A DNA stretch of 28,066 bases, from positions 1 to 28,066 of the IMG/VR virus record IMGVR_UViG_3300030329_004783. One strand, given 5' to 3'. Under the pieces are notes generated by a model. It saw nothing but the letters and a program-made list of their open reading frames with translations, made no database searches and was not told the origin of the DNA. The position numbers and the translations under genes were made by a program. Positions 243-6,404 of the stretch are shown one piece after another. How positions within the stretch are numbered: the first letter of the stretch is position 1; the number at the start of each line of letters is the position of its first letter. Origin of the DNA: a virus.

Positions 243-474
243 TGTATTCCTCTAATCCACACTTCATACACTTACCAAAAGTTGGTTGATGAATAGTATT
301 ATCTTTACATCGAGTACAAAAAATAAAGTCTCCTTCTTCCTGAAAGTTTACACTTCCATTGTATCTTTTCTTATCACGTTCTTTCTGTCCAAAAATTTCT
401 TCCCACCTTTCACGATAGGTATCATTAGATACACGAGATTTGCCATCCCATTTAGGTTTGTCTTTCTCATTCAT
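229..474 (-). CDS. Small zinc-ribbon protein
   Basis: 81 residues, highly charged, with a C-terminal CxxC-x13-CxxC pair (CTRC ... CMKC) that should bind one zinc ion. The N-terminal half is rich in Lys, Glu and Arg and has no recognisable fold. The start codon overlaps the stop of the homing endonuclease gene as ATGA (474-471), indicating translational coupling. It could bind nucleic acid or act as a transcription adaptor, but nothing in the sequence decides this. Zinc binding is inferred from cysteine spacing only. Confidence 0.75.
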   Translation of the reverse strand: MNEKDKPKWDGKSRVSNDTYRERWEEIFGQKERDKKRYNGSVNFQEEGDFIFCTRCKDNTIHQPTFGKCMKCGLEEYNEKQ

Positions 475-884
475 TCTAAATTCATCGTTTCTTTGTATTG
501 TTGTAGACTCACTACTTTGTCATTCATTAAATAATCTGGTGTGTAGTGATCTATAATTTGTTCTATCTTATGCAATTTTGTTTGTGTAAAAGGCCACAAT
601 ACTTTTGCAACATAGTAAGCATCTCTGTGACTACATCGCCAACGCCATTGTGTTTTTTTACCAGTCCAAGATTTAGTTGGTTTGCGAATAGTTACAGTTC
701 CCACTTTTAATACATCATGAACATATCTAATAGTTGATTCATCAGTCATAGATATTTCCATTCTAATATTCCAAGTTCTATAATCTTTCTTTTTACCTTT
801 CCTCTTCTTAGGTGTTTTAGAATAAGTTACACATCCTTCACCATCAAAAAGTCCAGCGATATAAGCTGCAGCACTAACTTCCAT
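471..884 (-). CDS. LAGLIDADG-family homing endonuclease
   Basis: 137 residues with one LAGLIDADG motif near the N terminus (IAGLFDGEG, residues 9-17), whose acidic residue contributes to the metal-dependent DNA cleavage site. After it come a basic stretch (KKRKGKKK) and the beta-rich DNA-binding saddle expected of this family. A single motif and this length fit a homodimer-forming enzyme. The gene is free-standing; I see no intron or intein interrupted by it. It overlaps the preceding lipoprotein gene by 11 bases and the following gene by ATGA, so it sits inside an operon rather than between operons. It may be a selfish element, or domesticated for DNA repair or recombination. Confidence 0.85.
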   Translation of the reverse strand: MEVSAAAYIAGLFDGEGCVTYSKTPKKRKGKKKDYRTWNIRMEISMTDESTIRYVHDVLKVGTVTIRKPTKSWTGKKTQWRWRCSHRDAYYVAKVLWPFTQTKLHKIEQIIDHYTPDYLMNDKVVSLQQYKETMNLE

Positions 885-1607: not shown

Positions 1608-1664
1608 TTAAAGGAAGTTTCTTACCTTTAATACCTATCCTATCACTCTCTCTTTAGGATAGGT
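1608..1664. terminator. Two hairpins between convergent genes
   Basis: Two inverted repeats lie between the plus-strand secreted gene (ends 1585) and the minus-strand deformylase gene (ends 1654). The first is TTAAAGG (1608-1614) with CCTTTAA (1625-1631). The second is a perfect 10-base stem, ACCTATCCTA (1633-1642) with TAGGATAGGT (1655-1664), with a 12-base loop. The second includes the deformylase stop codon. Position fits a two-way terminator, but neither stem is followed by a long T run. Confidence 0.5.
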
Positions 1665-2094
1665 CTGTAATTAATTTCCCATCTAAATGATCCATTTCAT
1701 GTTGTACTATTCTGGCTGGTAAATGATAAAAAGTTTTATATTGTTCTTTTCCATGCTCACAAAACCAAGATAATGCAACATAAATAGGCCTTCTAACCTG
1801 TATTAAATCTCCAGGACAAGACAGACACCCTTCTTCTTCTGCTAATTTTTCTTTAGCTCGTTTTTCAATTTTTGGGTTGATAAATATTTGAGGTTTATTT
1901 CTTTCATTAGAACTGTCTATGACAAAAATTCTTCTATTATATCCAACTTGGTTTGCAGCAAGTCCTACACCATTACTTTGGTACATAATATTAATCATAT
2001 TACCTATAATAATTTTATTTTCATCGCTTAAAGGTATTTCTACATTTTGTGTAGGTCCTTTTAAAAAGACATCGGGTTTTTTTAATATTTTCAT
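1654..2094 (-). CDS. def: Peptide deformylase
   Basis: Removes the formyl group from the N-terminal Met of nascent proteins, using a metal ion. All three family motifs are present in the 146-residue product: GVGLAANQ (42-49), EGCLS (88-92, metal ligand Cys90) and HEMDH (132-136, two His ligands and catalytic Glu133). The protein stops only ten residues after HEMDH, so it lacks the C-terminal helix of bacterial enzymes. This shortening is known from phage deformylases such as that of Vibrio phage Vp16. I chose ATG 2094 over the in-frame GTG at 2106, because 2094 forms an ATGA overlap with the upstream 37-codon ORF. Phage versions are thought to supply deformylase activity during infection. Confidence 0.95.
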   Translation of the reverse strand: MKILKKPDVFLKGPTQNVEIPLSDENKIIIGNMINIMYQSNGVGLAANQVGYNRRIFVIDSSNERNKPQIFINPKIEKRAKEKLAEEEGCLSCPGDLIQVRRPIYVALSWFCEHGKEQYKTFYHLPARIVQHEMDHLDGKLITDLS

Positions 2095-2204
2095 ACTAAC
2101 CCCCACAGTTTCCGTGCACGTACTCCTGCAGGAGCAAAGGCTCCGAGGCTACCCCTACCATAACGGGGGTCACAGCTTGACGTACAGGGAATAGCGCGAG
2201 GCAT
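2091..2204 (-). CDS. 37-codon ORF coupled to deformylase
   Basis: Starts at ATG 2204 and ends in TGA 2093-2091, overlapping the deformylase ATG as ATGA. The predicted peptide begins MPRAIPCTSSCDPRYGRG and ends VRARKLWGLV: basic, Gly/Arg/Pro-rich, two cysteines. By my count the 114 bases are about 57% GC, far above the surroundings. An AAAAGGA site lies upstream but about 14 bases away, with a GGAC/GTCC hairpin in the gap that could bring it closer. The open frame, the ATGA junction and the upstream purine box favour a real gene. The alternative is that the bases are conserved for RNA structure (see the overlapping entry). Confidence 0.6.
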   Translation of the reverse strand: MPRAIPCTSSCDPRYGRGSLGAFAPAGVRARKLWGLV

Positions 2205-2222
2205 TATTTGGACGCCGGTCCT
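2115..2222 (-). promoter_or_regulatory. GC-rich, hairpin-dense leader of deformylase
   Basis: Read on the minus strand, this stretch can form several stems in a row: GGAC/GTCC just before ATG 2204, GTCA/TGAC, ACCCC/GGGGT, GGAGC-CTTT-GCTCC (2144-2131), and the palindrome CTCCTGCAGGAG (2134-2123). The last two share GGAG/CTCC segments and so are mutually exclusive, as in attenuators. Base composition is unlike the rest of the window. It may be a structured mRNA leader, a small RNA, or coding sequence that happens to fold. I recognise no known RNA family. Confidence 0.4.
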
Positions 2223-2230
2223 TTTCAATT

Positions 2231-2437
2231 CTATTTGCATATACACCCAAAAAAATCACCACTATTGTTATTCATCACGTGAGCGTTAAGAACTTCAGAA
2301 TATATTGTCAACTTTAATCTCAAAATATCACACAGTTCAAAACAATTTACTTTAGCAGTCAGTATTATGCCTTCCATCATCTGTTTCGTCACTGGAACTA
2401 GATGATACATTCCATCGTTTAGTATTATTAATTCCAT
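2231..2437 (-). CDS. Hypothetical small protein
   Basis: 68 residues starting MELIILNDGMYHLVPVTK and ending DFFGCICK, with a mid-region of alternating hydrophobic residues (LRLKLTIYSEVL). The start at 2437 has a good AAAGGA ribosome-binding site five bases away. It overlaps the last 86 bases of the preceding ORF (2352-2534) in another frame. The chemistry of both translations looks protein-like, so both may be expressed. No family is recognised. The deformylase leader begins 26 bases downstream of its stop. Confidence 0.5.
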   Translation of the reverse strand: MELIILNDGMYHLVPVTKQMMEGIILTAKVNCFELCDILRLKLTIYSEVLNAHVMNNNSGDFFGCICK

Positions 2438-4348: not shown

Positions 4349-4666
4349 TTATTGAGATAGTGGATTAGATGTAGATACCTTAATTTCGTCTATTTGTACT
4401 TGAAGTAATTCTATTTGTTTTTCATTAATTAATGTTTTAGTATGAGAATGTTCAACTGGATGTTCGTGTGAAGTATCAACGTTTTCTAATGCAGCTACTT
4501 TTTCTTCTAGTACTGCTATTTGAGCAGAATAATCTGTAGATGATCTACCTTCTATTTCAGCTAATTTAGTTGTAATTTCTCCATACTTAACAAAGCCACC
4601 ACCTATTGCAACGATTGCTGCAATTAAAGCTGCTATTCCTGCAAGTTGGTCTTTAAGATTTTTCAT
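4349..4666 (-). CDS. Membrane-anchored coiled-coil protein
   Basis: 105 residues. An N-terminal membrane segment (AGIAALIAAIVAIGGGFVKYG, about residues 9-29) is followed by heptad-like coiled coil (TTKLAEIEGR, AVLEEKVAALE), a His-rich linker (SHEHPVEHSH) and a second coil (KQIELLQVQIDEI). The His cluster could bind metal. It has the plan of inner-membrane spanins and of several small phage membrane proteins near 19239-20317. It overlaps the end of the Glu-rich gene by 14 bases and is followed at once by a lipoprotein. Function unknown. Confidence 0.75.
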   Translation of the reverse strand: MKNLKDQLAGIAALIAAIVAIGGGFVKYGEITTKLAEIEGRSSTDYSAQIAVLEEKVAALENVDTSHEHPVEHSHTKTLINEKQIELLQVQIDEIKVSTSNPLSQ

Positions 4667-6404
4667 TTTTTAATGCCTCCAGTTCCATTAAAAGCCGTTG
4701 CTTCTTAATATTTATCTCTTGAAGTTTTCTAGCTTTGATTTCCATCTTATCACTTTGGATATAACTTGCAAGATTAGTATTTGGGTATATTTGCCTAAAA
4801 TCAAAGATATTTAATTGGTCTAAATATATGTCTTTTGGCTTATAAAACGCTGTATTTGCGTATGCATTTAATGATGCTTGTTCACTTGTCATAGCTTCCA
4901 TTTTTATGATATTCTTTACGGCTAAATTTTTAGAAATATCTTTAATATCTTTGTCAACTTTATCCATTATTCTGTCAAGATTTTTGACGATAGCTTTTTT
5001 CTGTTGTATCTTTTTTTGTTTGGCAAGCTTCTTAGTCTGAACAGCGGACTTCTTAGGAGTCTCGCTAGTAGATTTCTCTTCTTTAACTTCTTCTTTTTTT
5101 TCTTCATTAGTTTCTTCTACCATTTTAGTAGGTTCTTTTTCAACAGCTTCCTCCTCAGCCATTTCAGTAGTTTCTTCTTCCATTACTTCTTCTTCAACCA
5201 TTTCTTCTGATTCTTCTTCTATCATTTCTTCTTCCATTATTTCTTCTTCTTGTGGAAAACTATGAGACATGGTCTTTGGTTCTTTTTCCATTATTTCTTC
5301 TTCCATTACAGTTTCTTCTTTCATCATTGGTTTTTCTTCAATAATTTCTTCTTCCTCCATAACCATTTCTTCTTCTTGAGATACCATCGGTAAGAAGCTT
5401 GCAATGATTTCCTCTGTTTCTTCATATATTTCCTCCTCTTGTGGCATTATCATTGTAAAAAAAGAAGTGCTTATTTCTTCTTCCATAGGCATTTCTTCCA
5501 TTTCCATAACTATTTCTTCCTCAAATATTTCTTCTTCCATAGGAATTTCTTCCATAATTATAAGCATTGGTTCAAAGGTCATTTCTTCAAATTCTTCTTC
5601 CATAATTTCTTCCATAGGGGGTGCTATAAGTGTAAACTCTTCAAACATTTCTTCAATATATTCAAATGTAAACTCTTCAAATATTTCTTCTTGTAATTCT
5701 TCAAATATTTCACTTATTTCTTCAATAATTTCATTTTCTATAACTGTATTGTCATAAGTCATTGTCAATTTAGCACCTAACAAATTAGGTCCACCTAAAT
5801 TAACTGGAGTAGAATCACCATCTATACCAGTCCAGGTCCAGTCAAATTTATTAGATCCACTACCATTGTATATAACTTGATCTGTGTATTTATGCGCGTT
5901 TGCATAATATCCTGAGTCTGTATTTCTTATTTGGTCCACTTGAGATAATACTTCACCATCAGAGTCTAGTATTTTAACAGTAGTTTTAAATGTATCTCTG
6001 CCTGATTGAGCTTGACCACATGCGCTAGATGATCCAGACCATTCACAGTTTTGAATAACAGTTGTAGAATCTAATGTAACACCATTGTCTAACATTGCCT
6101 GGGTACTGGTTTCATCACCAGTTGTAATATTAACTAATGATCCTTGATAGTTTAACGTTCCCGTACCTGATGATGTACTACCTACTTCTACTTCTTGATA
6201 GTTCCAATTTGAGTTTGTGCATGTAGTATTGACAGATGTAAAAGATGAACAACTTGACTGTACGTTTGGTATTGTAGTGTCTACTGATTGTAGATTAGAC
6301 GCAGAACCAGTGCCATTTGGCAATAAATTACCTGTTGTTATTTCTTCTGCTAAAGTTGTAAGGGTTAACATCGTCAGCAAACTTATTAATACGATAAACC
6401 GCAT
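4653..6404 (-). CDS. Secreted protein with giant Glu-rich region
   Basis: 583 residues. A cleavable signal peptide (MRFIVLISLLTMLTLTTLA) is followed by a Ser/Thr/Gly-rich, probably beta-structured domain (about 20-215) with several cysteines. Next come about 230 residues (216-446) dominated by Glu with regularly spaced Met, Ile and Phe (repeats like EEEIMEEE), then a Lys-rich coiled-coil C-terminal domain (about 450-583) containing a Tyr/Asn/Asp-rich island. An AGGAG box seven bases before ATG 6404 supports the start. The acidic middle could bind cations, mimic nucleic acid, or act as an extended spacer. The upstream partner (6560-7297) is also secreted. No known family; it could be a virion appendage or a periplasmic effector. 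Confidence 0.8.
   Translation of the reverse strand: MRFIVLISLLTMLTLTTLAEEITTGNLLPNGTGSASNLQSVDTTIPNVQSSCSSFTSVNTTCTNSNWNYQEVEVGSTSSGTGTLNYQGSLVNITTGDETSTQAMLDNGVTLDSTTVIQNCEWSGSSSACGQAQSGRDTFKTTVKILDSDGEVLSQVDQIRNTDSGYYANAHKYTDQVIYNGSGSNKFDWTWTGIDGDSTPVNLGGPNLLGAKLTMTYDNTVIENEIIEEISEIFEELQEEIFEEFTFEYIEEMFEEFTLIAPPMEEIMEEEFEEMTFEPMLIIMEEIPMEEEIFEEEIVMEMEEMPMEEEISTSFFTMIMPQEEEIYEETEEIIASFLPMVSQEEEMVMEEEEIIEEKPMMKEETVMEEEIMEKEPKTMSHSFPQEEEIMEEEMIEEESEEMVEEEVMEEETTEMAEEEAVEKEPTKMVEETNEEKKEEVKEEKSTSETPKKSAVQTKKLAKQKKIQQKKAIVKNLDRIMDKVDKDIKDISKNLAVKNIIKMEAMTSEQASLNAYANTAFYKPKDIYLDQLNIFDFRQIYPNTNLASYIQSDKMEIKARKLQEINIKKQRLLMELEALKNEKS
5065..5757 (-). repeat. Low-complexity GAA-rich repeat tract
   Basis: About 690 bases in which the minus strand is a run of GAA/GAG codons broken by ATG, ATT, TTT and CCT. 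It encodes the Glu-rich middle of the 583-residue protein. The plus strand is correspondingly TTC-rich and gives false Ser/Phe-rich open frames. Such tracts expand and contract by slippage, so length differences between related genomes are expected. Confidence 0.8.

Follow-up and report, generated by a model that had tools for sequence, protein, structure and literature searches.

What does the GC-rich gap ahead of a peptide deformylase (PDF) gene encode in a viral DNA of 28,066 nucleotides (the whole stretch analysed, referred to as the window), and does it serve that gene? The island at positions 2091-2222 contained 56.8% GC against 33.7% window-wide, the maximum over all 132-nt stretches of the window, in agreement with an earlier note made from the letters alone. 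This note had proposed a leader peptide (with attenuator-like stems), a structured regulatory RNA or a recent import, and had pointed to a 37-codon ORF, which does exist on the minus strand: it starts with the ATG at 2204 and ends with the TGA at 2093-2091, which together with the overlapping PDF start reads ATGA. The folding energy of the island was ordinary in comparison with shuffles (z = -0.72) and gave no structure signal by itself; the evidence of structure beyond chance consisted of a match to Rfam (E 2.6e-9, calculated for the entire window) and covariation among relatives.

Family, fold and strand of the element

A cmscan of the window yielded one Rfam family above threshold, Flavobacterium-1 RNA (RF02976), which Rfam classes as an sRNA and which the earlier note had not recognised. 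The score exceeded the curated gathering cut-off (60.5 versus 58.9 bits), and the consensus structure was covered at full length (model positions 1-121 of 121), with covariation in P1, P4 and P5; the structured RNA among the three proposals was borne out by this match and the covariation. Relatives scored 64-103 bits, and a few diverged ones 32-45 bits. A core pattern leaving the remainder of the RNA free was found in at least 119 IMG/VR contigs, and a variant pattern gave a further 46 stretches: 31 real and 15 due to chance (L134, L136, L139, L142, L144-L146, L149, L152, L168-L170, L174, L175, and L177). The relatives recovered comprised 139 distinct sequences, nearly all on marine phage contigs. 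When about 85,000 species genomes of bacteria and archaea were scanned with the first pattern, only two matches (L129 and L130) appeared, both by chance and within coding sequence; a search of 399 genomes from the phylum to which L129's genome belongs gave no match, but carries little weight, as its positive control was silent too. The phage collection returned no BLAST match to subtype A, a tRNA/tmRNA search found none, and a neighbouring match to snoZ5 was far under its cut-off and was discarded as chance. No paper naming the family was found in the literature searched, which did not include the original family paper.

The cultured Pelagibacter phage HTVC027P (host, Ca. Pelagibacter HTCC1062) carries one unannotated copy of RF02976 (90.2 bits), while its relatives 023Pt_psg01 and HTVC023P carry none; each of the longer contigs checked (10/10) contained one copy. 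Since the DNA polymerase of the window was closest to those of 023Pt_psg01 (65%), HTVC027P (61%), and HTVC023P (54%), the window is a relative of the HTVC023P/HTVC027P-type pelagiphages, and by this relatedness its host would be of the SAR11 type. L198 (~1630-1790) and L244 (~1330-1490) contained a diverged form of the element, in which the P1 ends and the P5 hairpin are retained together with another core, and a LAGLIDADG ORF lies directly downstream; judging from these, the family looks wider than the Rfam model.

In the alignment of the 49 subtype A and B sequences (A2; subtypes C and D were aligned separately as A3), the fold comprised 26 pairs with 98.2% of cells paired (Table 1). Double-sided changes were found in 180 cells versus 59.6 in shuffles, none of 500 shuffles reaching 180. 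When the partner was slid by 1-3 columns as a control, at most 42.9% of cells were paired and the score was 0.140 (versus 0.428). Several stems are indeed present in the island, and the fold is backed by both the Rfam match and covariation. Paired cells contained 203 G.U versus 10 A.C combinations, and therefore, the selected molecule is RNA read from the minus strand. At L207 (1705-1830), a P5 hairpin with AGUACGUGCACGGAA was attached to a different, shorter core, which suggests that P5 is an exchangeable module.

Table 1. Positions of the element, its parts and its neighbours (window coordinates unless another sequence is named)
Feature	Position	Strand	Remarks
Flavobacterium-1 RNA (RF02976), whole element	2099-2224	-	cmscan match
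P1, 5' strand	2216-2224	-	pairs with 2136-2145; double-sided changes in inner pairs
P1, 3' strand	2136-2145	-	pairs with 2216-2224; outer sequences differ between subtypes A and B, both fully paired
P2, 5' strand (GCGUCCA)	2209-2215	-	invariant pairs with 2180-2186; internal mismatch covaries C.U to A.G
P2, 3' strand (UGUACGU)	2180-2186	-	invariant pairs with 2209-2215; mismatch C.U to A.G
P3 hairpin (GC..GC), within P2	2194-2202	-	invariant in the alignment
P4 hairpin, variable length	2148-2176	-	G-C to C-G double-sided changes; length differences not multiples of three
P5, 3' hairpin	2099-2135	-	stem 2126-2135 with 2099-2108; double-sided changes in 8 of 10 pairs; pairing in 98.4% of cells
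Sarcin-ricin-like motif AGUA/GAA around loop	2110-2124	-	AGUAC..GGA invariant in subtypes A and B; rRNA sequence AGUACGAGAGGA
Apical loop GUGCAC	2114-2119	-	self-complementary hexamer in relatives (138/139)
37-codon ATG ORF	2091-2204	-	seen in window, frame not conserved; not considered a gene
PDF, slot cargo	1654-2094	-	PF01327, E 8.6e-42
Upstream gene c5, left slot border	2231-2437	-	68 aa; best 80 of 206 loci compared, with and without RNA
Hairpin ACCTATCC..GGATAGGT, right slot border	1633-1664	-	inverted repeat; directly after the c5 stop in RNA-less loci
X1-X3 array before Flavobacterium-1	L131 (HTVC027P) 4663-5147		also L007, L020, L042, L046, L051, L100, L132 and others

The variable slot, its neighbours and the terminal ATG

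A protein search with c5, blind to the RNA, was used to compare loci, and the best 80 of 206 were inspected. The RNA lay within 330 nt of c5 in 30 of these best 80 by automatic count and, with the missed copies in L201, L205, and L243, in at least 33 by eye; an obligatory linkage between c5 and the RNA was rejected. Among the same best 80 of 206 loci, the c5 stop was followed at once by the ACCTAYCC hairpin in 16 and by a short insert ahead of this hairpin in 10. Since PDF in the window ends within the hairpin, RNA and PDF together fill the space from the c5 stop to the hairpin. In L199, PDF occupies the slot without RNA. Given this clean presence or absence at c5 loci, the RNA is a cassette-like unit of a variable slot, discrete and lying between the c5 stop codon and the downstream hairpin, and the suggestion of an import held in this form. 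At least five genomic locations of the RNA were distinguished among relatives. In two of them, it comes after c5, which is preceded by an SNF2 helicase gene in one and represents the window class in the other; in HTVC027P, it stands behind a promoter-like site that diverges from gene c14; and two others are the interval separating c20 from the large terminase and the space following c10. The terminase-side site of HTVC027P was empty, its RNA being located elsewhere, and at one genomic position, a terminator-like T-run came right after the RNA. A LAGLIDADG endonuclease-like protein was encoded downstream of the slot in the window (471-884), and also near the slot in many related contigs. Our guess is that homing endonucleases of this type help to move the cassette, the window protein being a possible driver of the exchange.

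The RNA ends 4 nt ahead of the PDF start codon, several different ORFs of relatives begin at exactly that ATG, and the G-rich 3' strand of P5 could mask or serve as a ribosome site. These points favour a cis-acting 5' UTR element (riboswitch-like or ribosome-landing) for the gene at its ATGA, here deformylase, which we nevertheless consider rather unlikely: an ORF of at least 57 codons from the terminal ATG was present in only ~19 of 142 elements, and these ORFs encoded unrelated proteins (PDF, oxygenase-like, and others). The T-run described above also stands against it. Because ~87% of elements are without such an ORF and PDF was found in a slot without RNA, a dedicated PDF switch is unlikely. 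No association with one gene or pathway was found among relatives, and the RNA is not specific to deformylase. The terminal ATGA was kept even without a following gene, often as ATGAATTAA. Shorter ORFs at this ATG included hydrophobic peptides of 27-35 aa (for example, MIWSMLIIIGIYALIIGLLIMWDKE), which begin at the ATGA in L009, L014, L023, L039, L044, L050, and L058. In those relatives whose RNA ends in an ATGA that is also the start of a gene (PDF, oxygenase-like, small membrane ORF, or LAGLIDADG), the element may act in cis.

In HTVC027P and many contigs, the c14-c11 region contained a row of tandem elements that lies behind a TTGACA..TATATA-like site and has the RNA as its final member: X1 (CUGAUCCCUGAUC..GAUCUGGGAUCAG), X2 (CAGUCAUU..CGUAGCAUAGUGACUG), X3 (AUUAUUUGCUGGAC..GUCCUGCUAAUAAU), and then Flavobacterium-1. 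The outer stems of X1, X2, and X3 were constant (98.2, 99.6, and 97.6% of cells paired, with 6, 3, and 4 double-sided pairs, respectively, as raw, unshuffled counts), whereas the interiors varied widely. X1-X3 had no match in Rfam, and none of them was present in the window. A scan for X3 only gave 36 contigs, mostly with the X1-X2-X3 order, and Flavobacterium-1 was found in 17 of the 36. Near-identical interiors occurred in different scaffolds (X1 of L010 and X3 of L295; X1 of L151 and X3 of L017), as if interiors had been exchanged between X1 and X3. Expression of the two genes after the array of HTVC027P, gp33 and gp34, falls into a cluster of its own, with high levels at 6-9 h post infection (PMC12753301); since both have promoter-like sites of their own, this expression bears only indirectly on the array.

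The rigid-stem array of HTVC027P, together with the usual location of the RNA on the same strand just past an upstream gene (c5, c20, or c10), is what would be expected if the RNA, instead of acting in trans, were a boundary or 3' UTR structure for the protection or processing of upstream-gene transcripts. We judge this to be unlikely, as in HTVC027P and similar contigs a promoter-like site, and no upstream gene, precedes the RNA, and the conserved core and apical loop sequence exceed the needs of a stability stem. Discrete insertion between c5 and the hairpin, the several genomic positions, the TGA near the element start with ATGA at its end, and the palindromic loop would also fit a recombination site or mobile element working mainly at the DNA level, with the hairpins mattering in DNA; this is quite improbable in view of the excess of G.U over A.C, which reflects selection on a one-strand RNA, the single copy per contig tested, and a dedicated recombinase not having been identified.

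The least tenable reading, a leader peptide or attenuator controlling deformylase, which we regard as practically dismissed, was drawn from the 37-codon ORF and its ATGA overlap, and fails because this ORF is not conserved. In the frame whose stop overlaps the ATGA, an ORF of at least 51 codons was kept in 9 of 35 subtype A relatives, while a stop occurred three codons upstream in 12 and a start codon was absent in another 8; the remaining subtypes differed yet again. The length differences of the P4 hairpin among relatives were not multiples of three, the ATGA persisted without a downstream gene, and the downstream content varied among relatives with no consistent operon. The comparison of codon-level with stem-level conservation advised in the earlier note was thus decided in favour of the stems: the frame was broken in most of the closest relatives, an outcome that the note itself had named as speaking against the peptide, and the stems were maintained by compensatory changes.

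The tip of P5 and the proposed role of the RNA

The P5 tip of subtypes A and B was AGUAC-GUGCAC-GGAA or AGUAC-GUCGAC-GGAA, and the strands between the helices carried the sequence signature of the sarcin-ricin motif (AGUA/GAA), AGUA being invariant and GAA nearly so. In subtypes C and D, a short stem and a 7-nt loop with UGAUCA or UGGCCA were found instead. The loop hexamers (GUGCAC, 81; GUCGAC, 20; UGAUCA, 32; and UGGCCA, 5) are each their own reverse complement, and this self-complementarity, kept by compensatory change in 138 of 139 relatives, is a new feature of the family. The sole exception was L138 (550-700; family member, 80.6 bits), in which the 3' hairpin is larger and its loop, CCUGCAA, contains just a UGCA core. 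The patterns that recovered the relatives did not contain the P5 loop, and a scan of the collection with 8 of the 12 non-palindromic GUNNAC centres gave 15 hits, none of which was a family member. The probability by chance was estimated to be ~1e-5 to 1e-6 on the assumption that the loop arose independently in AB and in CD (1/64 each) and underwent a double change once in either group, a rough value because the independent events are few. The conservation of the hexamer leads to the prediction of kissing-loop dimers, in which two RNA copies would pair as a homodimer through P5.

These results identified a conserved structured RNA, with its strand and family, and a cassette-like distribution. 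The element is probably a Flavobacterium-1 non-coding RNA of a pelagiphage-like marine phage akin to HTVC027P and HTVC023P, carried as a cassette, trans-acting, and dimeric via the P5 loop, with PDF as independent cargo. The RNA would act in trans as a phage RNA, not as a switch for one adjacent gene; two copies would join through the self-complementary loop, and RNA cassettes would be exchanged by recombination. PDF shares the variable slot with the RNA. A trans-acting, possibly dimeric phage RNA is our best guess, supported by the unrelated downstream contents across relatives, the occurrence of empty and filled slots, and the five genomic positions. On the other hand, the loop changes represent few independent events, and L138 lacks the hexamer. 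More tentatively, with the odds somewhat against it, the arrays may belong to a modular phage RNA system, in which promoter-driven X1-X2-X3 scaffolds with exchangeable hypervariable interiors end in a dimerising Flavobacterium-1 RNA, and the pieces recombine among pelagiphages and may, in the course of infection, jointly target RNA or translation factors of the host.

An RNA family that has a name but no explanation is now placed in a cultured SAR11 phage, HTVC027P, and its function becomes testable because an infection transcriptome of this phage has been published. The conserved self-complementary loop offers a simple, falsifiable biochemical prediction, and the undescribed structured RNAs arrayed next to the element suggest that abundant marine phages possess a more extensive repertoire of modular RNAs.

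The window RNA shares with RF02976 the full-length match over the gathering score, the three-way core and the 3' hairpin. However, its subtype barely exceeds the cut-off, it resides in a phage rather than in a Flavobacterium chromosome, and neither its sarcin-ricin-like motif nor its palindromic loop is as strong in the Rfam consensus (loop ccggauacgg). AGUAC..GGA is found as in the sarcin-ricin sequence of 23S rRNA, AGUACGAGAGGA, but the GAGA tetraloop of the latter (PMC12737465) is replaced by GUGCAC or GUCGAC, and subtypes C and D are without the motif. The palindrome of the HIV-1 dimerization initiation site (DIS) is the identical self-complementary hexamer, GUGCAC, in an apical loop (PMC7357161); in the present RNA, a C-G pair closes the loop directly, without the flanking loop purines of DIS, and no kinship is implied. 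The Rfam models of GOLLD and ROOL had no match in the window or the related loci tested. Both are structured RNAs that are carried by phages, have no known function and form multimers by kissing-loop contacts (PMC12286853); they are much larger than Flavobacterium-1 RNA, which is likewise carried by phages and for which kissing loops are predicted.
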